From Pandoraea thiooxydans (GTDB lineage: Bacteria > Pseudomonadota > Gammaproteobacteria > Burkholderiales > Burkholderiaceae), in the NCBI RefSeq assembly GCF_001931675.1, contig NZ_CP014839.1, positions 1,116,001 to 1,180,000 on the forward strand: a DNA stretch of 64,000 bases, in the 5' to 3' direction. A model generated the notes under the pieces. The model had not been told where the DNA came from and did not search any database. It worked only from the letters and a program-made list of their open reading frames with translations. Shown piece after piece: positions 43,776 through 55,780 of this stretch. Position 1 is the stretch's first letter; each line of letters opens with the position of its first letter. A program made the position numbers and the translations under genes.

Positions 43776-44402
43776 TCAGGAGCGCTTGGACAAGGCCAGG
43801 CGCAGCAGGTCGGCGACCGTGTTGACGTTGAGCTTTTCCATGATATTGGCGCGGTGGGCCTCGACCGTCTTGATGCTGATGCCGAGGTCGTCGGCAATCT
43901 GCTTGTTCAGCCGGCCGGCGATGATGCGCTCGAGTACCTGCTGTTCGCGCCCGGTCAGACGCGCCAGCAGTTCGTCGGCCGCCTGCTGCTCGCGCTGGCT
44001 GCTGGCGTCAAGCCGGGCCTTGCCCAGCATGCGCTCGACCAGCACACGCAGCTCGGCCGCATCGAACGGCTTTTCGATAAAGTCCATCGCACCCTTTTTC
44101 ATGGTGTTGACGGCCATCGGCACGTCGCCGTGGCCAGTGACGAAAATGGTCGGAATCGAAATATTCTGAGCCAGCAGATGCTCCTGCAACTCGAGTCCGT
44201 TCATCCCGGGCATGCGCACGTCGAGGATCAGGCATGCCACCTGGCGCCGGTCGTAGTGCGCCAGGAACTGCTCGGCACTGTCGAAACTGCGCACGTGATA
44301 ACCGTTGGCTTCGAGTAACCAGCGCAGCGAGTCACGAACGGCTTCATCATCGTCGACAATAAAGACGGTTTCTTGATCAGTGTTGTTGTTGCTGGCAGTC
44401 AT
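43776..44402 (-). CDS. FixJ-like response regulator (LuxR-type HTH)
   Basis: 208 residues. Receiver domain with acidic pocket DDDEA and phosphoacceptor Asp61 (LILDVRMPG), the conserved Thr (FVTGHGD) and Lys (IEKPF); then a NarL/FixJ-type helix-turn-helix (LTGREQQVLERIIAG, KTVEAHRANIMEKL). Its ATG overlaps the kinase stop by 4 bases, so the two form one operon. Which genes it controls is not shown, but the aceE operon starts just upstream of the kinase on the other strand. Confidence 0.93.
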   Translation of the reverse strand: MTASNNNTDQETVFIVDDDEAVRDSLRWLLEANGYHVRSFDSAEQFLAHYDRRQVACLILDVRMPGMNGLELQEHLLAQNISIPTIFVTGHGDVPMAVNTMKKGAMDFIEKPFDAAELRVLVERMLGKARLDASSQREQQAADELLARLTGREQQVLERIIAGRLNKQIADDLGISIKTVEAHRANIMEKLNVNTVADLLRLALSKRS

Positions 44403-46879
44403 GCTTCCCCCACGGATGAAGTATCGGCGTCAAATGGTAAAAGGATAAAGAACGTGCAGCCGCTGCGCACGTCCCCGGCATAGTTGTTTTCCACCCACAG
44501 GCGGCCATGATGGGATTCGATGATCGAGCGGCAAATATTCAGACCCATGCCCATACCGTCGGATTTCGTACTGAAAAACGGTTCGAACAGGCGTTCGATG
44601 GCGGTCTCGTCGACGCCCGGACCATGATCGACGACGGTGAACTCGATGGCTCTCTCCTGTCGGCGCACGTGCAGGCGAATCGATAGATCGCGCCGCAGGC
44701 CCGGCGGCGGCGTATGGTTTTGCATCGCCTCGGCCGCGTTTTTGAGCAGATTCACCAAAACCTGTTCGATCAGCACCGGGTCGACGTAAATTTGCGGCAG
44801 GCCCGCCGGGAGCTCGGTCACGATGCGGATGCGCCGCTTGCGCGCCTCGATTTCGGCCAGCCCCACCGCATCGGCGACGATCTCGTAAATGCTCGTGGGT
44901 TGACGCTTGGGTTCGCTGCGTTTGACGAACGAGCGGATGCGCTTGATGATCATGCCCGCCCGCACCGCTTGTTGCGAGGTTTTTTCGAGTGCCGGCAGCA
45001 ACGTCTCCGGACTGGTGCGTCCTGCCCGCACCAACGCGGCCGTTCCCATGCAGTAATTATTGATTGCGGCCAATGGCTGATTCAACTCGTGGGCCAACGA
45101 AGAGGCCATCTCGCCCATTGTCATCAGTCGGCCGGTGAATTGCAAGCGCTCTTCTTCCTGGCGCGCCAGCTCCTCGGCCTGACGCCGCGCGGTAATGTCG
45201 GTGGCCACTTGCAGTTGTGCCAAGTGACCGTCCACCCATTGGATGTATTGGCGCCGCACTTCAAACCATTTTTGCCGGCTGGGCAGGTAGATCTCCTGCG
45301 TTTCGGAAGCCGTATCAGTCAGAGCCACGGCCGGCAGACCCGCATAGGCGTCCACCATGTCGATCGAATCGCTCGACGCTTGCGCCGACTCGAGCGCGCC
45401 GTCGGACAGCTCGAGATGTCCCTCCGGTCGCGTGCCGAACAATTGCCGGTAATAACGATTGGCGAACAGCAGCTCGGCCTTGTCGACGGCCAGCACCGAG
45501 ACCGACGCGTCGAGACTCTCGAGCACCGTGGTGAAACGCTCGTGGGCCGCGGCAAGCTCCTCGCGGGCGCGTTTGGGTTCACTGATATCGGTCAGTGACG
45601 ACATCCAGCCGGTTTGCCTGCCATGCGCGTCTACCAGCGGCGAGACGAACATACGGGCATAGAACACCGAGCCGTTCTTGCGCCGCACACGGATTTCGAA
45701 CCCGTGCGACGGGGCCTTGCCGCGCAGGGTCATGTCGATGCGGCGCTGCATCTCGTAAATGTCGTCGTCCGGCCAGTAGGGATAGGGCGGCGCATGCCCC
45801 AGAAGGTCCGCCTCGTCCCAGCCCGTCATGCGGCAAAACGCCGGATTGACATAAGTGATATGGCCTTGCAGATCCAGCACCCGCATGCCGATCACGATGG
45901 AATTTTCCATCGCCCGGCGAAACGATGTTTCGTTGAACAGCGCCTGTTGCGCCTCGAAACGTTGCCGCGTGTGGCGCCACAAGCTCCAGAGGCTCCAGAG
46001 CACGAAGCACGACAGGCCGACAATTAGCCATACCAGCGTGTTATTGACGAAGTTGCCGACCGATGGATATGAATAGACGCGCACCAGCAGGCTATGCCCG
46101 GGAGGGTCGAGCAGCAGCTCGGACGAAACGTCGCGTGGCGACGGCGGCCGGGTCGATGTGGTGGCCAGCTCCTTGTTGTGGGTGTCGACGAACGAGACCT
46201 TGAACTTGTTGCCGAGCTCTTGCGGCAATTCATGAATCAGCATTCCCTCGACCGAATACACCACGCCGATGGTGCCGAGGAATTCGCGCCCGCGCAGCAC
46301 GGGCACTTCGAGCGCTATGTAGGACATGCCCGAAGCGTCGTACAGTAACGTCGAGTAGGCCGGTCGCCGCGAATCACGGGCGGCACGAAACGCCACCAGC
46401 AAAGCGTCCTCCATCGGACTGTCCTTGCTCGCCTGCAGTCGCGCGGCAAACGGCGAATCGCTCGGCACTGCCCACTGCGGCCGTTGCTCGGCATTCAGCC
46501 AGTTCATGAACACGATGTCAGGATGATTCTGCATCATCTCGTCGGCTGCGCTGGCGAAATGTCCGAGGCCCTGGGGAGCCGCGGCGGTGTCGCGCGCGAG
46601 CGAACTGATCTGATCCTGGATCGACAGCATGTTCAGGCGAATCTGTTGCTGCGCCCAGGCGACATTCCGGTACAGGGTATCTTGCTGCTGCTCTGTCTCG
46701 CGGCGGTTCAGGCTCCACAGAATCAGGCTCATCACCACCAGAAAGATAACAATCGAGGCGAGCGGCACCAGCAGGTAGTAGTGCGATTCCGCAAAACCCT
46801 GCAGCCAGCGGTTCGAACGGCCGGCTGCGTGATTCGGCCGTGTGGGGGGGGCGGGAGTGGCGACGCGGTGCGGAAACAT
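44399..46879 (-). CDS. PAS-domain sensor histidine kinase, FixL/DctB-like
   Basis: 826 residues. First membrane helix at 35-57, a periplasmic sensor of about 220 residues, second helix at about 278-302, two PAS domains (318-440 and 442-560), then HisKA with His597 in SSLAHELNQPLAAINNYC and a HATPase domain (VLVNLLKNAAEAM; DHGPGVDE; GMGLNICRSIIE). The second PAS lacks an obvious haem-binding His signature, so it is not proven to be an oxygen sensor. The periplasmic part suggests a small-molecule ligand. Divergent from aceE, gap 308 bases. Confidence 0.92.
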   Translation of the reverse strand: MFPHRVATPAPPTRPNHAAGRSNRWLQGFAESHYYLLVPLASIVIFLVVMSLILWSLNRRETEQQQDTLYRNVAWAQQQIRLNMLSIQDQISSLARDTAAAPQGLGHFASAADEMMQNHPDIVFMNWLNAEQRPQWAVPSDSPFAARLQASKDSPMEDALLVAFRAARDSRRPAYSTLLYDASGMSYIALEVPVLRGREFLGTIGVVYSVEGMLIHELPQELGNKFKVSFVDTHNKELATTSTRPPSPRDVSSELLLDPPGHSLLVRVYSYPSVGNFVNNTLVWLIVGLSCFVLWSLWSLWRHTRQRFEAQQALFNETSFRRAMENSIVIGMRVLDLQGHITYVNPAFCRMTGWDEADLLGHAPPYPYWPDDDIYEMQRRIDMTLRGKAPSHGFEIRVRRKNGSVFYARMFVSPLVDAHGRQTGWMSSLTDISEPKRAREELAAAHERFTTVLESLDASVSVLAVDKAELLFANRYYRQLFGTRPEGHLELSDGALESAQASSDSIDMVDAYAGLPAVALTDTASETQEIYLPSRQKWFEVRRQYIQWVDGHLAQLQVATDITARRQAEELARQEEERLQFTGRLMTMGEMASSLAHELNQPLAAINNYCMGTAALVRAGRTSPETLLPALEKTSQQAVRAGMIIKRIRSFVKRSEPKRQPTSIYEIVADAVGLAEIEARKRRIRIVTELPAGLPQIYVDPVLIEQVLVNLLKNAAEAMQNHTPPPGLRRDLSIRLHVRRQERAIEFTVVDHGPGVDETAIERLFEPFFSTKSDGMGMGLNICRSIIESHHGRLWVENNYAGDVRSGCTFFILLPFDADTSSVGEA

Positions 46880-47187: not shown

Positions 47188-49875
47188 ATGTCCGCCGTAC
47201 CTGATGAAGTTCTGAAATACGTGTCCGAGCAGGACGCCGATCCCCAAGAGACCAAGGAATGGCTCGAATCCCTGGAAGGCGTGCTTAGCGCCGAAGGTCC
47301 GGAGCGGGCGCACTACCTGCTCGAAAAGCTGATCGAATACGCTCGCGTGAACGGCGAACACCTGCCGTTCTCCGCCAATACGCCCTACATCAACACCATT
47401 CCGCTCGATCAGCAAGCCCATATTCCGGGCGACCAGGAGATCGAACATCGCGTGCGTTCGTACACGCGCTGGAACGCGATTGCGATGGTGCTGCGCGCGG
47501 GCAAGACCACCAACGTGGGCGGCCATATCGCTTCGTTTGCCTCGGCCGCCACGTTGTACGACGTCGGTTTCAATCATTTTTGGCACGCGCCTTCCGACAA
47601 GCACGGTGGCGACCTGATCTTCGTGCAGGGCCACTCGTCGCCCGGCATCTACAGCCGCGCATTCTTGCTGGGCCGTCTGACCGAGAAGCAACTCGACGGC
47701 TTCCGCCAGGAAGTCGATGGCCATGGCATCCCGTCCTACCCGCACCCGTGGCTGATGCCGGACTTCTGGCAATTCCCGACCGTTTCGATGGGCCTGGGCC
47801 CGATCATGGCGATCTATCAAGCCCGCTTCATGAAATACATGGAAAGCCGGGGCGTGCTGAAAACCGACGGCCGCAAAGTGTGGGCTTTCCTGGGCGATGG
47901 CGAAACCGACGAGCCCGAATCGCTCGGCGCGATCGGCATGGCCGGGCGCGAACGGCTCGATAACCTGATTTTCGTGGTCAACTGCAATCTGCAGCGCCTG
48001 GACGGCCCGGTGCGCGGCAATGGCAAGATCATCCAGGAGCTGGAGTCGGAATTCCGCGGCGCCGGATGGAATGTCATCAAGGTCATCTGGGGCAGCCGCT
48101 GGGATGCCCTGTTGGCGCGTGACAAGAAGGGTTTGCTGATGAAGCGCATGATGGAGTGCGTGGATGGCGAGTACCAGACCTACAAGTCTAAGGACGGCGC
48201 TTACGTGCGTGAGCATTTCTTCAACTCGCCCGAGTTGAAGGCGATGGTGGCCGACTACTCCGACGAAGACATCTGGAATCTGAATCGCGGCGGTCACGAT
48301 CCGCACAAGATCTATGCGGCGTTCCAGCAGGCGACCAATCACAAGGGTCAGCCGACCGTGATCCTGGCCAAGACCATCAAGGGTTATGGCATGGGCGAAG
48401 CCGGCCAGGCGATGAACATCACCCACCAGCAAAAGAAAATGCCGGTGGATGCGCTGAAGAAGTTCCGCGATCAATTCAAGCTGCCGATCACCGACGAGCA
48501 GATCGCCGACGTGCCTTACGTGACGTTCGAAGAGGGCTCGAAAGAACTCGAATACATGCGCGAGCGCCGCATGGAGCTGGGTGGTTACCTGCCGGCCCGG
48601 CGCGCCAAGGCCGCATCGCTTCAGGTGCCGGCGCTGTCGGCTTTCGAGCCGGTGCTCAAGGCGACCGCCGAAGGGCGTGAAATCTCGACCACCATGGCGT
48701 TCGTGCGGGTGCTGAACATCCTGCTCAAGGACAAGACGCTGGGCCAGCGGATCGTGCCGATCGTGCCGGACGAATCGCGTACCTTCGGCATGGAAGGGTT
48801 GTTCCGTCAGATCGGTATCTGGAACCAGCAAGGCCAGAAGTACGTGCCTCAGGACCAGGACCAGCTGATGTTCTACAAGGAATCCGAGAACGGTCAGATT
48901 CTGCAGGAAGGGATTAACGAGGCCGGCGGCATGTGCGACTGGATCGCGGCGGCCACGTCGTACTCGACGCATGGCGAGCAGATGATCCCGTTCTATGTCT
49001 TTTACTCGATGTTCGGCTTCCAGCGCATCGGCGATCTGGCCTGGGCCGCCGGCGACATGCGCTCCCGCGGCTTCCTGGTCGGCGGCACCGCCGGGCGCAC
49101 GACGCTCAACGGCGAAGGCCTGCAGCACGAAGACGGTCACTCGCTGCTGTGGTCCTCGGCGATTCCGAACTGCATTTCGTACGACCCGACCTATGGCTAC
49201 GAACTGGCGGTGATCGTGCAGGACGGCCTGCGCCGCATGGTGCAGGAGCAGGAGGACGTGTACTACTATATTACCGTGATGAACGAGAACTACGCGCAAC
49301 CCGGCTTGCCCGAGGGCGTGGAGAAGGACATCGTCAAGGGCATGTATCTGTTCCGGCGCGGCGAGCAAAGCAAGAAGGCCCCGCACGTGCAACTGCTGGG
49401 CTCGGGCACGATCTTCAACGAAGTGGTCGAAGCCGCCGCGCTATTGAAGAACGATTGGGGTGTCGACGCCGATCTGTGGAGCTGCCCGAGCTTCACCGAA
49501 CTGGCGCGCGAAGGCCACGACGTGGCGCGCTACAACCTGCTGCATCCGACCGAGACGCAACGCCAATCGCATGTCGAGGCTTGCCTCAAGGACGCGAGCG
49601 GACCGGTGATCGCTTCGACCGATTATGTGCGTGCCTATGCCGATCAGATTCGTCCGTTCCTGTCGCAGCGCTATGTGGTACTGGGCACCGACGGTTTCGG
49701 CCGTTCCGACACGCGCGAAAAATTGCGTCATTTCTTCGAGGTTGACCGCTACTGGGTCACCGTTGCGGCGCTCAAGGCGCTGGCCGACGAGGGAACGATC
49801 GCTGCAGCCAAGGTCGCCGAAGCGATTGCCAAGTACGGGCTCGATCCGAACAAACCCAACCCGATGATCGTGTAA
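47188..49875 (+). CDS. aceE: Pyruvate dehydrogenase E1 component (homodimeric)
   Basis: 895 residues, the single-chain E1 of Gammaproteobacteria and Betaproteobacteria. Decarboxylates pyruvate with thiamine diphosphate and passes the acetyl group to the lipoyl arm of E2. The ThDP/Mg motif GDGE...N is seen in FLGDGETDEPESLGA with the later VNCNLQRLDG, plus the N-terminal helix that docks with E2 and QHEDGHSLLWSSAIPN in the second half. First gene of the aceE-aceF-(proteasome-like gene)-lpdA operon. Confidence 0.97.
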   Translation: MSAVPDEVLKYVSEQDADPQETKEWLESLEGVLSAEGPERAHYLLEKLIEYARVNGEHLPFSANTPYINTIPLDQQAHIPGDQEIEHRVRSYTRWNAIAMVLRAGKTTNVGGHIASFASAATLYDVGFNHFWHAPSDKHGGDLIFVQGHSSPGIYSRAFLLGRLTEKQLDGFRQEVDGHGIPSYPHPWLMPDFWQFPTVSMGLGPIMAIYQARFMKYMESRGVLKTDGRKVWAFLGDGETDEPESLGAIGMAGRERLDNLIFVVNCNLQRLDGPVRGNGKIIQELESEFRGAGWNVIKVIWGSRWDALLARDKKGLLMKRMMECVDGEYQTYKSKDGAYVREHFFNSPELKAMVADYSDEDIWNLNRGGHDPHKIYAAFQQATNHKGQPTVILAKTIKGYGMGEAGQAMNITHQQKKMPVDALKKFRDQFKLPITDEQIADVPYVTFEEGSKELEYMRERRMELGGYLPARRAKAASLQVPALSAFEPVLKATAEGREISTTMAFVRVLNILLKDKTLGQRIVPIVPDESRTFGMEGLFRQIGIWNQQGQKYVPQDQDQLMFYKESENGQILQEGINEAGGMCDWIAAATSYSTHGEQMIPFYVFYSMFGFQRIGDLAWAAGDMRSRGFLVGGTAGRTTLNGEGLQHEDGHSLLWSSAIPNCISYDPTYGYELAVIVQDGLRRMVQEQEDVYYYITVMNENYAQPGLPEGVEKDIVKGMYLFRRGEQSKKAPHVQLLGSGTIFNEVVEAAALLKNDWGVDADLWSCPSFTELAREGHDVARYNLLHPTETQRQSHVEACLKDASGPVIASTDYVRAYADQIRPFLSQRYVVLGTDGFGRSDTREKLRHFFEVDRYWVTVAALKALADEGTIAAAKVAEAIAKYGLDPNKPNPMIV

Positions 49876-49922: not shown

Positions 49923-49956
49923 CGCAGTGCGGGCAGACGCGAGGAGACTGTCAGAA

Positions 49957-51618
49957 ATGAGTCAAGTAATTGAAGTCAAGGTGCCGGACATCGGCGGGTA
50001 CAACGATGTCCCGGTTATCGAAGTACTGGTGAAGGCGGGCGATCGGGTCGAGGCGGAAACGTCGCTGGTCACGCTGGAATCGGACAAAGCGACCATGGAC
50101 GTACCGAGCCCGTCGGCCGGCGTCGTCAAGGACATCAAGGTCAAGGTTGGCGATACGGTGTCCGAAGGTTCGCTCATCATCATGCTGGAGTCGGCCGACG
50201 GCGCAGCGCCCGCGGCCGTCAACGGCAAGGCGGCCGCCAGCGCGCCGGCCCCGGCCGCGCCCGCGGCGGCAGCCCCGGCCACGCCGACCGCACCGGCGCC
50301 CGCTGGTGGGACGACTGAAGTCAAAGTACCCGATATCGGCGGGTACAACGATGTGCCGATCATCGAAGTCCTGGTCAAGGCCGGCGACAAGGTCGAGGCC
50401 GAGCAATCGCTGATCACGCTCGAGTCCGACAAGGCCACCATGGACGTGCCCAGCCCGTCGGCCGGCGTGGTCAAGGAAGTCAAGGTCAAGGTCGGCGACA
50501 CGGTGTCCGAAGGCAGTGTGATTATCCTGCTCGAAGGCGGTGCCGCACCGGCGCAAACTCAGGCGACAGCGCCGGCCGCGCAACCGGCCGCACCCGCGGC
50601 AGCGGCGCCGCAGGTCGAGGTGCCCAAGGCGCCTGCACCGGCGAAGGCAGCTGAACCCGCCGCACCGCTGGTGCCGCTGGTGCAGGAAGGCGAGCATACG
50701 ATCAGCCACGCCAGCCCGTCGGTGCGCAAATTCGCGCGCGAGCTGGGTGTCGACGTCGCACGCGTGCCGGGCAGCGGTCCGAAAGGACGCATCACGCTGG
50801 ACGACGTGCGCGCGTTCATCAAGCGCGCGATGAGCGGTCAGGGCGCTGCCGTATCGGCTCCTGCAAGTGGAGGAGCGGGCCTGGATTTGCTGCCGTGGCC
50901 GAAAATCGACTTCGCCAAATTCGGTCCGGTCGAACCCAAGCCGCTGTCGCGCATCAAGAAAATATCCGGCGCCAATCTGCATCGCAACTGGGTGATGATT
51001 CCTCACGTCACCAACAACGACAACGCCGATATTACCGATCTCGAAGCGTTCCGCGTCTTGCTGAACAAGGAAAACGAAAAGTCGGGCGTCAAGGTAACGC
51101 TGCTGGCTTTCCTCATCAAGGCGTGCGTGGCCGCGCTGAAGAAGTTTCCGACTTTCAATGCCAGCCTCGATGGCGACAATCTGGTCTACAAGCAATACTT
51201 CAACATTGGCTTTGCCGCCGACACGCCCAACGGGCTGATGGTGCCGGTCATCAAGGATGCCGACAAGAAGGGCATATTCGAGATTGCCCGCGAGACTTCG
51301 GAATTGGCCAAGGCGGCGCGTGACGGCAAGCTCAAGCCCGATCAGATGCAAGGCGGGTGTTTCTCGATATCGTCGCTCGGCGGCATCGGTGGAACCTATT
51401 TCACGCCGATCATCAATGCGCCGGAAGTCGCCATTCTCGGCGTGTGCCGTTCCACCCAGCAGCCGGTGTGGGACGATGCAAAGCAGCAGTTCGTACCGCG
51501 CCTGATATTGCCGTTGTCGCTGTCGTACGATCACCGCGTGATCGATGGCGCGGAAGCGGCGCGCTTCAACACCTATCTGGCGCAACTGTTGCACGACTTC
51601 CGTCGAGCGATGCTCTGA
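49957..51618 (+). CDS. aceF: Pyruvate dehydrogenase E2 (dihydrolipoamide acetyltransferase)
   Basis: Start at the ATG 49957 with GAGGAG upstream (MSQVIEVKVPDIGGY); a frame opening 30 bases earlier is not needed. 553 residues: two nearly identical lipoyl domains with lipoylated Lys44 and Lys159 (both ESDKATMDVPSP), separated by Ala/Pro-rich linkers, then the E1/E3-binding domain (SPSVRKFARELGVDV), and the catalytic acyltransferase core ending in SYDHRVIDGAEAARF with the active-site His. Most E. coli strains have three lipoyl domains here; two is common in Betaproteobacteria, which add one on E3. Confidence 0.97.
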   Translation: MSQVIEVKVPDIGGYNDVPVIEVLVKAGDRVEAETSLVTLESDKATMDVPSPSAGVVKDIKVKVGDTVSEGSLIIMLESADGAAPAAVNGKAAASAPAPAAPAAAAPATPTAPAPAGGTTEVKVPDIGGYNDVPIIEVLVKAGDKVEAEQSLITLESDKATMDVPSPSAGVVKEVKVKVGDTVSEGSVIILLEGGAAPAQTQATAPAAQPAAPAAAAPQVEVPKAPAPAKAAEPAAPLVPLVQEGEHTISHASPSVRKFARELGVDVARVPGSGPKGRITLDDVRAFIKRAMSGQGAAVSAPASGGAGLDLLPWPKIDFAKFGPVEPKPLSRIKKISGANLHRNWVMIPHVTNNDNADITDLEAFRVLLNKENEKSGVKVTLLAFLIKACVAALKKFPTFNASLDGDNLVYKQYFNIGFAADTPNGLMVPVIKDADKKGIFEIARETSELAKAARDGKLKPDQMQGGCFSISSLGGIGGTYFTPIINAPEVAILGVCRSTQQPVWDDAKQQFVPRLILPLSLSYDHRVIDGAEAARFNTYLAQLLHDFRRAML

Positions 51619-51696: not shown

Positions 51697-52287
51697 ATGA
51701 CCACCGTCGTTGTCGTCCGCAAGCACAATGAAATCGCCATTGCGGCGGATTCGCTGGTGACCTTCGGCGAGACGCGGCTGTCGCAGGCCTATGAAGCGAA
51801 TCGCAAGATCTTCCAGATCGGCGACTCGTATATCGGCCTGGCTGGCACCACCGCGCATTTCCCGGTCATGCGCGCCTTGCTCACGGGGCTGGGCGAGGAG
51901 TGCAAGCTGCATTCGCGCGACGACGTTTTTCGTACCTTCTGCAAAGCGCATCAGAAGCTCAAGGAAGAATATTTCCTGAACACCAAGGAAGAAGAGGACG
52001 ACCCGTACGAGTCGTCGCAGATTACTTGCCTGATTGCCAACCCGAGCGGTATTTACGGTGTGTACTCGTACCGCGAGGTGTTTGCCTTCGACCGCTTTTG
52101 GGGCATCGGCTCTGGGCGCAGCTTTGCGCTTGGCGCGATGTATGCGGCCTACGATTCGGCCCCGAATGCGAGTGCCATTGCCGAGCTGGGTGTCAAAGCC
52201 GGGGCGGAATTCGATAAAAGCTCCGGTGGGCCGTTCCAGATTCATGCCTTTCCCATTCCAACGCCAAACGCGACAGGAGACAGCTAA
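51697..52287 (+). CDS. HslV/proteasome-like Ntn hydrolase, probable betaproteobacterial proteasome homologue (BPH)
   Basis: 196 residues. The N-terminus MTTVVVVRKHNEIAIAADS follows the E. coli HslV pattern (TTIVSVRR...GGD) closely: after Met removal there would be an N-terminal Thr nucleophile, an Asp at position 17, and RKIFQI, which lines up with KKLFQI of the archaeal proteasome beta subunit and so gives a Lys at 36. LAGTTAHF matches the Gly-Thr segment of the fold. No propeptide is seen. Often such genes are misannotated as transporters; there are no membrane helices here. It sits in the pdh operon and its stop overlaps the lpdA start (TAATG). Substrate and unfoldase partner are unknown. 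Confidence 0.75.
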   Translation: MTTVVVVRKHNEIAIAADSLVTFGETRLSQAYEANRKIFQIGDSYIGLAGTTAHFPVMRALLTGLGEECKLHSRDDVFRTFCKAHQKLKEEYFLNTKEEEDDPYESSQITCLIANPSGIYGVYSYREVFAFDRFWGIGSGRSFALGAMYAAYDSAPNASAIAELGVKAGAEFDKSSGGPFQIHAFPIPTPNATGDS

Positions 52288-54023
52288 TGAGTCTCATCGA
52301 AGTCAAAGTGCCGGACATCGGCGACTTCAGTGATGTTGATGTAATCGAAGTGCTCATCAAAGTGGGCGATACCATTGCGAAAGAGCAATCGTTGATCACG
52401 CTCGAAACCGACAAGGCCACCATGGAAGTGCCGAGCGAGCAGGCCGGCGTCGTCAAGGAGATGCGCGTCAAGGTCGGCGACAAAGTGAGCCAGGGCACCG
52501 TGATCGCAATGGTCGAAGCGGGTGCCGCCCAGGAGGCCGCACCCGCGCCGGCGCCGAAGCCGCAACCGGCCGCTGCCGCGCCGGCGCCCGCGCAGCATGG
52601 CGGCGGCGCCGACATCGAATGCGACGTGCTGGTGCTCGGCGCCGGCCCCGGCGGGTATTCCGCCGCCTTCCGCTCGGCCGATCTGGGCCGCAACACCGTA
52701 CTGGTCGAACGCTACGCAACGCTGGGTGGTGTGTGCCTGAACGTCGGCTGCATCCCGTCGAAGGCCCTGCTGCACACGGCTGCCGTGACTGACGAGGCAG
52801 CCGCGCTGGCCGCCCACGGCATCACGTTCGGCAAGCCGCAAATCGATCTCGACAAGCTGCGCGCTTTCAAGGACAGCGTGGTCGGCAAGCTCACCGGGGG
52901 TTTGGCCGGCATGGCCAAGGCGCGCAAGGTGCAGGTGGTGCGTGGCGTGGGCGCGTTCCTCGATCCGCATCATCTGGAAGTCGCGCTGGCCGACGGCGGC
53001 AAACAGGTCATCAAATTCCAGCAGGCAATCATCGCCGCCGGCTCGCAGGCGGTGAAGCTGCCGTTCGTACCCGAAGACCCGCGCATTGTCGATTCGACCG
53101 GCGCACTCGAACTGCGCCAGTTGCCGAAGAAAATGCTGGTGATCGGCGGCGGCATCATCGGCCTGGAAATGGCTACCGTCTATAGCACCCTCGGCGCCGA
53201 GATCGACGTGGTGGAAATGCTCGACGGGCTGATGCAGGGCGCCGATCGCGATCTGGTCAAGGTGTGGGAAAAGTTCAACGCGAAACGCTTCGGCAAGGTC
53301 ATGCTCAAGACCAAAACCGTCGCGGTGGAAGCAAAGTCCGACGGCATCTACGTGAAGTTCGAGGGCGAAGCCGCACCCGCCGAGGCGCAGCGTTACGACT
53401 TGGTGCTGGTGGCGGTGGGGCGCAGCCCGAACGGCAACAAGATCGGCGCCGACAAGGCGGGTGTAGCGGTCAGCGAGCGCGGATTCATTGCCGTCGACAA
53501 GCAAATGCGCACCAACGTGCCGCATATTTTTGCGATCGGCGACATCGTCGGCCAACCGATGCTGGCGCACAAGGCGGTGCACGAGGCCCACGTGGCGGCC
53601 GAAGCCGCCGCCGGCGAGAAGTCCTATTTCGATGCGCTGCAAATTCCGTCGGTGGCCTACACCGATCCCGAGGTGGCCTGGGCAGGCAAGACAGAAGAGC
53701 AGTGCAAGGCCGAGGGTATCAAATATGGCAAGGCCGTGTTCCCGTGGGCGGCTTCCGGCCGCGCGATCGCCAATGGCCGCGACGAGGGTTTCACCAAGCT
53801 GCTGTTCGATGAACAGACCCATCGCCTGATCGGCGGCGGCATCGTCGGCACGCATGCCGGCGACCTGATCGGGGAGTTGTGTCTGGCGGTCGAAATGGGA
53901 GCCGACCCGGTCGACATCGGCAAGACGATTCATCCGCATCCGACACTGACCGAGTCGATCGGCATGGCGGCGGAAATTTTCGAAGGCGTTTGCACGGACG
54001 TGCCGCCGCCGCGCAAGAAATAA
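52287..54023 (+). CDS. lpdA: Dihydrolipoyl dehydrogenase (E3) with N-terminal lipoyl domain
   Basis: 578 residues, about 100 longer than ordinary E3 because of an N-terminal lipoyl domain with Lys43 (ETDKATMEVPS) and an Ala/Pro linker. Then the FAD site (VLVLGAGPGGYSAA), redox cysteines Cys150 and Cys155 (GGVCLNVGCIPSK), the NAD site (VIGGGIIGLEMATV) and the C-terminal His-Glu pair (HPHPTLTE). Reoxidises the dihydrolipoyl arm of E2 with NAD+. Starts on the stop codon of the proteasome-like gene. Confidence 0.97.
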   Translation: MSLIEVKVPDIGDFSDVDVIEVLIKVGDTIAKEQSLITLETDKATMEVPSEQAGVVKEMRVKVGDKVSQGTVIAMVEAGAAQEAAPAPAPKPQPAAAAPAPAQHGGGADIECDVLVLGAGPGGYSAAFRSADLGRNTVLVERYATLGGVCLNVGCIPSKALLHTAAVTDEAAALAAHGITFGKPQIDLDKLRAFKDSVVGKLTGGLAGMAKARKVQVVRGVGAFLDPHHLEVALADGGKQVIKFQQAIIAAGSQAVKLPFVPEDPRIVDSTGALELRQLPKKMLVIGGGIIGLEMATVYSTLGAEIDVVEMLDGLMQGADRDLVKVWEKFNAKRFGKVMLKTKTVAVEAKSDGIYVKFEGEAAPAEAQRYDLVLVAVGRSPNGNKIGADKAGVAVSERGFIAVDKQMRTNVPHIFAIGDIVGQPMLAHKAVHEAHVAAEAAAGEKSYFDALQIPSVAYTDPEVAWAGKTEEQCKAEGIKYGKAVFPWAASGRAIANGRDEGFTKLLFDEQTHRLIGGGIVGTHAGDLIGELCLAVEMGADPVDIGKTIHPHPTLTESIGMAAEIFEGVCTDVPPPRKK

Positions 54024-54801: not shown

Positions 54802-55359
54802 TTATTTCTTGGCAGCGCGCGAAGAAGCTTGTTGAGCTGCCTTGGTGGCCACGTTGGTGGCTGCCGCGAAATTGGTTTCAGCCAGTTCGACGGCTTGCTT
54901 GGTCGCTTTGTGAACGCTGTCATAGGCGCTGTTGGCGGCACTGATGGCGGACTTCACGACGGCCACGGCGGATTCGGAACCGGCGGGTGCATTCTTGGCG
55001 ATATTGTCGACCATCGATTGCAGCTTCTGCGAGTTCTCGGCGAGCTGCGATTCAGCGACTTTGCTGAATTCGGCTTGAGTGTTCGAGGCGATTTCGTACA
55101 GATGACGGCCATAGGCAAGAACCTTCTCGGCAGCCGGTTGCACCAGATTTGCCTGCAGGGCCAGGAATTCTTGCGGGTCTTTGGCCGTCAGCGCCTTCTG
55201 TGCGTTGCTCGCACCTTCTTCCAGCGTCGTCTTGACGACCTGCAAATTCAGTTCGACCAGCTTTTCAATGCCTTCGAAGGCTTTGTTGGTCAGACCAAAC
55301 AGGGTTTCGAGGTTGGCTTTGTGAGCCGAGGCCAGTTGTTCCGGGGTCAAAAATGACAT
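54802..55359 (-). CDS. phaP: Phasin family protein (PHA granule coat)
   Basis: Start at the ATG 55359 with AGGAGA upstream ([20 protein letters not shown]); the frame stays open 53 codons up but that part is not protein-like. 185 residues, almost wholly helical, with the phasin_2 pattern [20 protein letters not shown] and an Ala/Lys-rich tail ([12 protein letters not shown]). Phasins coat polyhydroxyalkanoate granules and set their size and number. No other pha gene is in the window. Its promoter region has a TGC-rich palindrome. Confidence 0.92.
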
Positions 55360-55468
55360 TGCTTTCTCCTGAGGCAGAAAAATTGTGTCCCACTCCGTGT
55401 TTGCTGGTCTTTGGTTTTCACTTAAGGGTGAAAACACGGTTCGGGTCATCTCGCTGTGTACCGCATTG

Positions 55469-55479
55469 GTGCAGTGCAC
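55469..55479. promoter_or_regulatory. TGC-rich palindrome at the phaP start site
   Basis: GTGCA-G-TGCAC, just downstream of the candidate -10 box and near further TGCA blocks (55482-55486). PHA regulators of the PhaR type bind TGC-rich sites upstream of phasin genes in related bacteria. Confidence 0.4.
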
Positions 55480-55486
55480 AAATGCA

Positions 55487-55514
55487 AGTTTATAGCAAAG
55501 ATTCCTGATGTCAA
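55487..55514 (-). promoter_or_regulatory. Candidate phaP promoter
   Basis: On the minus strand: a perfect TTGACA at 55514-55509, 16-base spacer and TAAACT at 55492-55487. TATAAA two bases earlier is an alternative -10 but gives a short 14-base spacer. Confidence 0.5.
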
Positions 55515-55780
55515 GCATTTTTTGTGCAGAGCAACATTAATGAAAATTCATTAAGAATCAGCCAATTGCACTGCAGTTCGCATAGCTCCAACGGCGACCG
55601 TGCACCTTTTCGTGGCATGCCGTTCCGTGCCCCTTGGGATACTGATGGTGCACGACGGTGATAACATCGCAAACGGGCTGTTTATCGCCATGGGCCGCGG
55701 CATTTCGATAAGCGCCCCTGAAACGTGCCTCGCCTGGAAAATTCCCCATCGGCGCGTCAAAAATTCCAATGCTTTGACCA

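Follow-up and report, generated by a model that had tools for sequence, protein, structure and literature searches.

A betaproteobacterial proteasome homologue within the pyruvate dehydrogenase operon of Pandoraea thiooxydans: identity, genomic neighbourhoods and a proposed quality-control role

The gene lying between aceF and lpdA in the predicted pyruvate dehydrogenase (PDH) operon of Pandoraea thiooxydans is BPH, a betaproteobacterial proteasome homologue, and a survey of related loci indicates that the PDH operon is only one of the settings in which BPH occurs, probably reached once and with no visible catalytic or pore change. Because the family, its structure and its PDH-operon location have been in print since 2017 (PMC5777263), the core of this finding, namely the gene's kind and its place in the operon, is already known. 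Since BPH also occurs in other settings and its PDH-linked copies show no visible change, the search for a function shifts from PDH to traits common to BPH carriers; the Hsp15 neighbourhood is a new and cheap lead. We favour, with moderate confidence, the reading that BPH is an ATP-independent quality-control protease whose gene entered the PDH operon once and draws steady expression from it.

Background

The first description of BPH is reportedly that of Valas and Bourne in 2008. The homologues characterized later are described as closed double rings with an acidic pore, in which the initiator methionine is removed to leave a Thr1 nucleophile, and two of them form tetradecameric double rings in solution (PMC5777263). 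The nucleophile was shown for the Thiobacillus denitrificans protein (Td-BPH) and was inhibitor-modified in the Cupriavidus metallidurans protein (Cm-BPH), while the pore loop was disordered in Td-BPH crystals (PMC5777263). Three operon types were distinguished, with argG, with PDH genes (as in C. metallidurans) and with Hsp33 (PMC5777263). A further study placed BPH at the centre of HslV-like group I and gives no genomic context that hints at function for its own new homologues (PMC8665760).

Results and discussion

The gene and its operon

The window, by which we mean the whole 64,000-nt stretch that was analysed, comes from a genome of a single contig (4,464,185 bases), and aceE, aceF, BPH and lpdA follow one another on its plus strand (Table 1), the operon being predicted from this gene order. 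The initial annotation had described a frame of 196 residues at 51697-52287 (plus strand) that starts Met-Thr-Thr and carries Asp18, Arg36-Lys37 and the segment LAGTTAHF; the frame is real, and all of these residues are present, with Gly50 inside LAGTTAHF. It was also right that the protein lacks a membrane helix (its 19-residue Kyte-Doolittle means peak at 0.93) and that PDH E2 and E3 genes flank it, both scoring above their NCBIfam cut-offs. The start of aceF is assumed to be the ATG at 49957 (MSQVIEV), the list of open reading frames having a GTG at 49927. Two further frames were read by eye on the minus strand, one sensor histidine kinase-like (44399-46879) and divergent from aceE, the other phasin-like (54802-55518) and convergent with lpdA.

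The gap between the end of aceF (51618) and BPH measures 78 nt and contains a stem-loop that may tune expression of the downstream genes; its region folds little better than shuffled versions, with a z-score of -1.54 and 12 of 200 shuffles folding equally well. A special promoter or terminator in this gap was considered and rejected, as the plus strand carries no such-like site and no T run follows the stem-loop. At the other end, the BPH stop and the lpdA start share one base (TAATG, lpdA ATG at 52287), as first noted. This overlap is a quirk of the window's own small clade: of the 63 PDH-linked loci in which the junction was measurable, only the window, L002 and L003 have a clear TAATG, and the spacing is about 20 nt in most other Pandoraea.

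Table 1. Features of the BPH gene and its operon (window positions; counts refer to 136 distinct BPH loci)
Feature	Coordinates	Strand	Remarks
aceE (PDH E1)	47188..49875	+	TIGR00759 above cut-off
aceF (PDH E2)	49957..51618	+	TIGR01348 above cut-off over 49963-51615
Stem-loop	51632..51657	+	Inside aceF-BPH gap; no T run behind; single copy in window
BPH gene	51697..52287	+	196 aa; ATG 51697, TAA 52285-52287; Thr2 is the expected mature N-terminus (Thr1)
Thr2 codon	51700..51702	+	N-terminal nucleophile after predicted Met1 removal; Thr 134/136, Ser 2/136
Asp18 codon (Asp17 mature)	51748..51750	+	136/136
Lys37 codon (proteasome Lys33 equivalent)	51805..51807	+	136/136
Gly50 codon, oxyanion-hole glycine	51844..51846	+	136/136; role as given in PMC5777263
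Acidic pore loop, residues 95-106 (NTKEEEDDPYES)	51979..52014	+	Low pLDDT in model
lpdA (PDH E3, N-terminal lipoyl domain)	52287..54023	+	TIGR01350 above cut-off

Identity as a BPH

In phmmer searches against the PDB, the best match was Cm-BPH (5OVU, E-value 7.9e-92), followed by Td-BPH (5OVS, 1.4e-39) and then a 20S beta subunit (1.2e-3), and Anbu was absent among the 12 PDB sequences matched up to an E-value of 0.1. The Pfam Proteasome profile matched above its cut-off (E-value 2e-8), whereas the HslV profiles and the archaeal and bacterial 20S beta profiles all fell far below theirs, with 29.1 versus 157.75 bits for TIGR03692 and 29.9 versus 137 bits for a second HslV profile, and 26 versus 224 and 11.6 versus 191.9 bits for TIGR03634 and TIGR03690, respectively. 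An AlphaFold2 model built from 25 BPH sequences (mean pLDDT 85.3, pTM 0.84, with pLDDT below 50 at residues 95-99 and 101-106 of the pore loop and at the last three residues) showed the alpha-beta-beta-alpha fold of Ntn hydrolases, and Foldseek ranked 5OVU first with it (70% identity, TMq 0.82), then 5OVS and 5OVT (42% identity), then HslV and 20S subunits. By profile and by fold alike, HslV is the nearest family outside BPH. The protein has Thr straight after Met (a position that is Thr or Ser in BPH) with no propeptide, followed by Asp17, the Lys33-equivalent lysine and the oxyanion glycine, and a long acidic pore loop lies between H2 and the next strand. The gene is BPH, the identity that the initial annotation had inferred, and profile search, predicted structure and survey all favour it.

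The closest known system is Cm-BPH (Rmet_1198), which belongs to the same family and has the same types of acidic pore loop and operon, but comes from another genus, the TAATG overlap being confined to the window's clade. Td-BPH has the same fold and catalytic residues but sits in an argG operon and carries a one-residue insertion before the catalytic lysine. HslV has its fold and catalytic set in common with BPH, whereas the window's protein scores far below the HslV cut-off, is not encoded beside hslU and has the long acidic pore loop. The initial annotation saw no unfoldase nearby, and for HslU this was confirmed: none of the seven HslU-profile stretches of the genome falls inside the window. 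Full-length hslU lies at C1:3928006-3929349, far from the window (1116001-1180000), and adjoins a proteasome-family gene (C1:3929392-3929904) that we took as HslV and to which BPH shows 38% identity over 52 residues in BLASTP. A reading of the gene as an HslV paralogue was rejected because the profile scores are low and hslU lies elsewhere in the genome.

Beyond the residues in Table 1, Ser139 is found in 131 and Asp173 in 133 of the 136 distinct loci, and the pore loop is net acidic by at least 3 in 135, the exception being L141. Judging by sequence comparison, purifying selection on the gene is strong, with a median dN/dS of 0.030 against 0.047 for lpdA (136 pairwise comparisons among 17 Pandoraea outside the window's clade), and its active site looks intact. 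A chance open reading frame was likewise rejected, given the Pfam match, the low dN/dS and the presence in nearly all genomes of the genus (see below). A Ser nucleophile is said to occur outside Betaproteobacteria (PMC5777263); the two Ser copies here, L141 (genome G118) and L087, come from genomes that nonetheless belong to the window's order.

Distribution and neighbourhoods across the order

Counting matches of the window protein at an E-value of 1e-6 or better, BPH occurs in 30 of 32 genomes of the genus, in 97 of 398 genomes and 4 of 25 genera of the family (one genus only through a distant 31% match), in 116 of 300 genomes and 59 of 134 genera of the order, and in 12 of 398 genomes of the phylum. 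The two genus genomes without a match are a 1.2-Mb genome and one that is 89% complete and also has no PDH-type lpdA match. For the comparison of loci, 142 sequences were gathered (the window stretch, its own locus L001, 80 loci and 60 more loci), of which six were exact duplicates with respect to the BPH gene and were removed to leave 136 distinct loci. Neighbours were assigned by searching the same strand up to 700 nt away with named references in tblastn.

Neighbourhoods of these 136 loci were PDH in 64, hsp33 in 27, hsp15 in 18, argG in 16, FMN-binding in three and other in eight, a count in which close relatives of the query are over-represented among the set of 80 loci. The less biased count of one locus per genus (59 genera, with one genome each hand-picked from the order-level matches) gave hsp33 in 21, argG in 16, PDH in 11, hsp15 in four, FMN-binding in one and other in six. 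Whether the order aceF-BPH-lpdA is kept across Burkholderiales had been posed with the initial annotation, and the answer is divided. Within PDH-linked loci it holds, as aceF lies directly upstream in 64/64 and lpdA directly downstream in 63/64 (L051 ends in BPH), including all 20 of the loci L002-L021 (19 Pandoraea and one metagenome-assembled genome, MAG, titled Burkholderiales bacterium); across the order it does not, 48 of the 59 genera being not PDH-linked.

Hsp33 lies downstream of BPH in 27/136 loci, within 150 nt in 24 and at 537-616 nt in three. An Hsp15-like S4 protein is encoded downstream in 18/136, directly in 15 (L055, L057, L058, L061-L063, L065, L068, L069, L074, L076, L080, L089, L092 and L133) and behind one FMN-binding gene in three (L070, L075 and L079); the name comes from the representative L076, whose best NCBIfam match is Hsp15 at 100.6 bits, below the cut-off of 148, and was extended by tblastn from L076. 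Some clusters read gluQRS-BPH-hsp33-FMN-binding-hsp15 (for example L073). Upstream argG marks 16/136 loci (L085, L087, L090, L094, L096, L097, L100-L102, L104, L115, L118, L122, L124, L129 and L136), and in 15 of these yajQ (DUF520, "cyclic di-GMP-binding" in NCBIfam) follows within 200 nt downstream, while L115 has it at a distance of about 2.8 kb. None of the words Hsp15, hslR and yajQ appears in the main text of PMC5777263, and a literature search for a link of BPH to Hsp15/hslR/yajQ found no paper.

History of the PDH location

In a tree of 118 rows, the 46 PDH-linked rows form one side of a single branch (bootstrap 85, SH-aLRT 95), which is below the star threshold of the tool, and PDH linkage needs one change; the same number holds for 84% of 200 bootstrap trees. 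A further tree, built quickly from 116 rows after omission of the two longest branches (L140 and L141), gave the same split with an SH-aLRT of 98, here starred. Both trees were built without 17 of the 20 loci L002-L021 and without the partial L051, and in both, two changes are required for the PDH, Hsp-type and argG neighbourhoods taken as a whole, with "other" rows uncounted. The simplest reading of these unrooted counts, which are blind to direction, is that the gene moved into the PDH operon, or out of it, a single time; entry is more likely, we infer, because the other contexts are spread over many families. The BPH gene thus probably entered the PDH operon once, in an ancestor of part of Burkholderiales, and then stayed.

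The drawing outgroup of the larger tree, L140 (genome G452), is a 31% proteasome-like match from another genus of the family with a branch length of about 10; it was counted as "other" among the 136 and probably represents a different group of proteasome homologues, not BPH proper. L106, also "other", has only about 140 bases upstream before the contig edge, and it groups with argG-linked rows in the tree.

PDH operons were also inspected in 18 hand-picked genomes, 17 without a match and G452 with only the distant one. A high-scoring PDH-type lpdA was found in 17/18, and in 16/18 aceF lies directly upstream of it across a gap too small for BPH; one of the 17 has no aceF match upstream, and G325 is incomplete there. 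The 1.2-Mb reduced genome of the genus (L165), presumably that of a known Pandoraea endosymbiont, keeps aceF-lpdA and has lost BPH. Its gap of about 204 nt holds a stretch of 16-19 residues that resembles BPH residues 148-166, at about the distance from lpdA that a decayed BPH would have, and of 1000 shuffled gaps in a control run with Pandoraea queries, 1 scored equally. When the eight larger of the 16 gaps were searched for BPH remnants with 136 protein queries, only L165 beat an E-value of 0.01 among the 20 best matches, and its stretch is a probable decayed BPH remnant. Given aceF-lpdA without BPH in 16/18 genomes, PDH genes persist without BPH, including in the endosymbiont, whose lineage probably once had it.

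Proposed function and alternatives

Adaptation of BPH to PDH substrates should have left its mark on the S1 pocket or the pore. Only three alignment columns (33, 77 and 125), all outside the catalytic residues and the pore loop, separate PDH-linked copies from the rest, by the measure of at least 85% in PDH rows (47) and at most 15% in Hsp (48) and argG (16) rows. The pore loop of the window, KEEEDDPYESSQ, is nearly unchanged in the Hsp-linked copies shown, and the loop is nearly alike in PDH-, Hsp33- and Hsp15-linked copies. Catalytic residues and an acidic pore loop that are alike across neighbourhoods argue for general ATP-independent quality control over a PDH-specific role.

On our preferred reading, BPH would be a subunit of proteasome beta type, building a two-ring barrel that encloses the N-terminal Thr sites, its assembly and chemistry being carried over from the solved homologues at 70% and 42% identity. 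Removal of Met1 would free the threonine, mature Asp17 and Lys36 would activate it, and the acidic pore loop would guard the chamber. Such a chamber would most likely break down small, partly unfolded or damaged proteins independently of ATP as part of stress-linked quality control, with the PDH operon supplying steady expression rather than naming the substrate; we infer both this role and this reason for the location. In the 2017 study, Cm-BPH and Td-BPH had no peptidase or casein-degrading activity, so that the protease role stays a proposal, and in E. coli BPH left carbonylation patterns unchanged and was no substitute for Lon, HslUV or ClpXP, so that a version of the proposal centred on oxidative damage failed in that setting (PMC5777263).

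The initial annotation had instead suggested turnover of PDH subunits or lipoyl-domain proteins, with the position between E2 and E3 coupling the level of a dedicated protease to that of the complex. The invariable flanking of PDH-linked copies by aceF and lpdA fits this idea, as does a location that needs one change on the tree and is then retained; indeed, being kept in every row of the PDH branch, over several families, it could reflect a real PDH link. Nevertheless, we consider a PDH-dedicated protease unlikely. It is disfavoured by the published Cm-BPH pull-downs, which with and without cross-linker recovered no PDH subunits (PMC5777263), and by the survey, in which most genera are not PDH-linked, argG- and Hsp-linked copies have the same catalytic residues and a similar pore, 16 of the 18 chosen genomes have PDH operons without BPH, and the endosymbiont retains aceF-lpdA with only a weak BPH remnant.

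Quite unlikely, in our estimate, is a more specific proposal suggested by gene order (Hsp33 in 27/136 loci, Hsp15 in 15/136 directly and three more), in which BPH, Hsp33 and Hsp15 would form a heat-shock/redox quality-control module, the BPH chamber removing unfolded clients released by the other two, and the PDH-operon copies would be this machine after a single move into an operon with strong expression. Hsp33 is a redox-activated holdase, and Hsp15 binds 50S subunits with stalled nascent chains; in E. coli it is described as not part of the RqcH pathway (PMC8012679 for Hsp15).

It is improbable that BPH acts as a second HslV-like chamber served by the housekeeping unfoldase HslU or ClpX. 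HslV is indeed the nearest outside family, and the same genome has a proteasome-family gene, hence HslV, beside full-length hslU; on the other hand, PMC5777263 reports no AAA+ partner for BPH, HslU-interface residues that are not conserved in the family, pull-downs that yielded no partner, HslU included, and genomes in which BPH is the sole proteasome-family member. A 7-fold BPH ring would, moreover, face a 6-fold HslU. Just as improbable is that BPH, instead of degrading proteins in bulk, processes or ligates specific targets. In favour, its active site is inert on a broad peptide panel yet is modified by epoxomicin and MG132 (PMC5777263), and connectase demonstrates that a proteasome fold can serve as a ligase (PMC8665760). 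Against it, BPH forms a closed barrel with internal sites, unlike connectase, which is monomeric (PMC8665760), and we know of no target motif.

A few copies look disrupted: in three order-level matches a stop interrupts the matched region, and the family-level match of G556 is in two pieces. Certain MAG names, such as "Bordetella parapertussis", "Lysobacter" and "Rhodospirillales", are depositor labels at odds with the place of these sequences in the tree.
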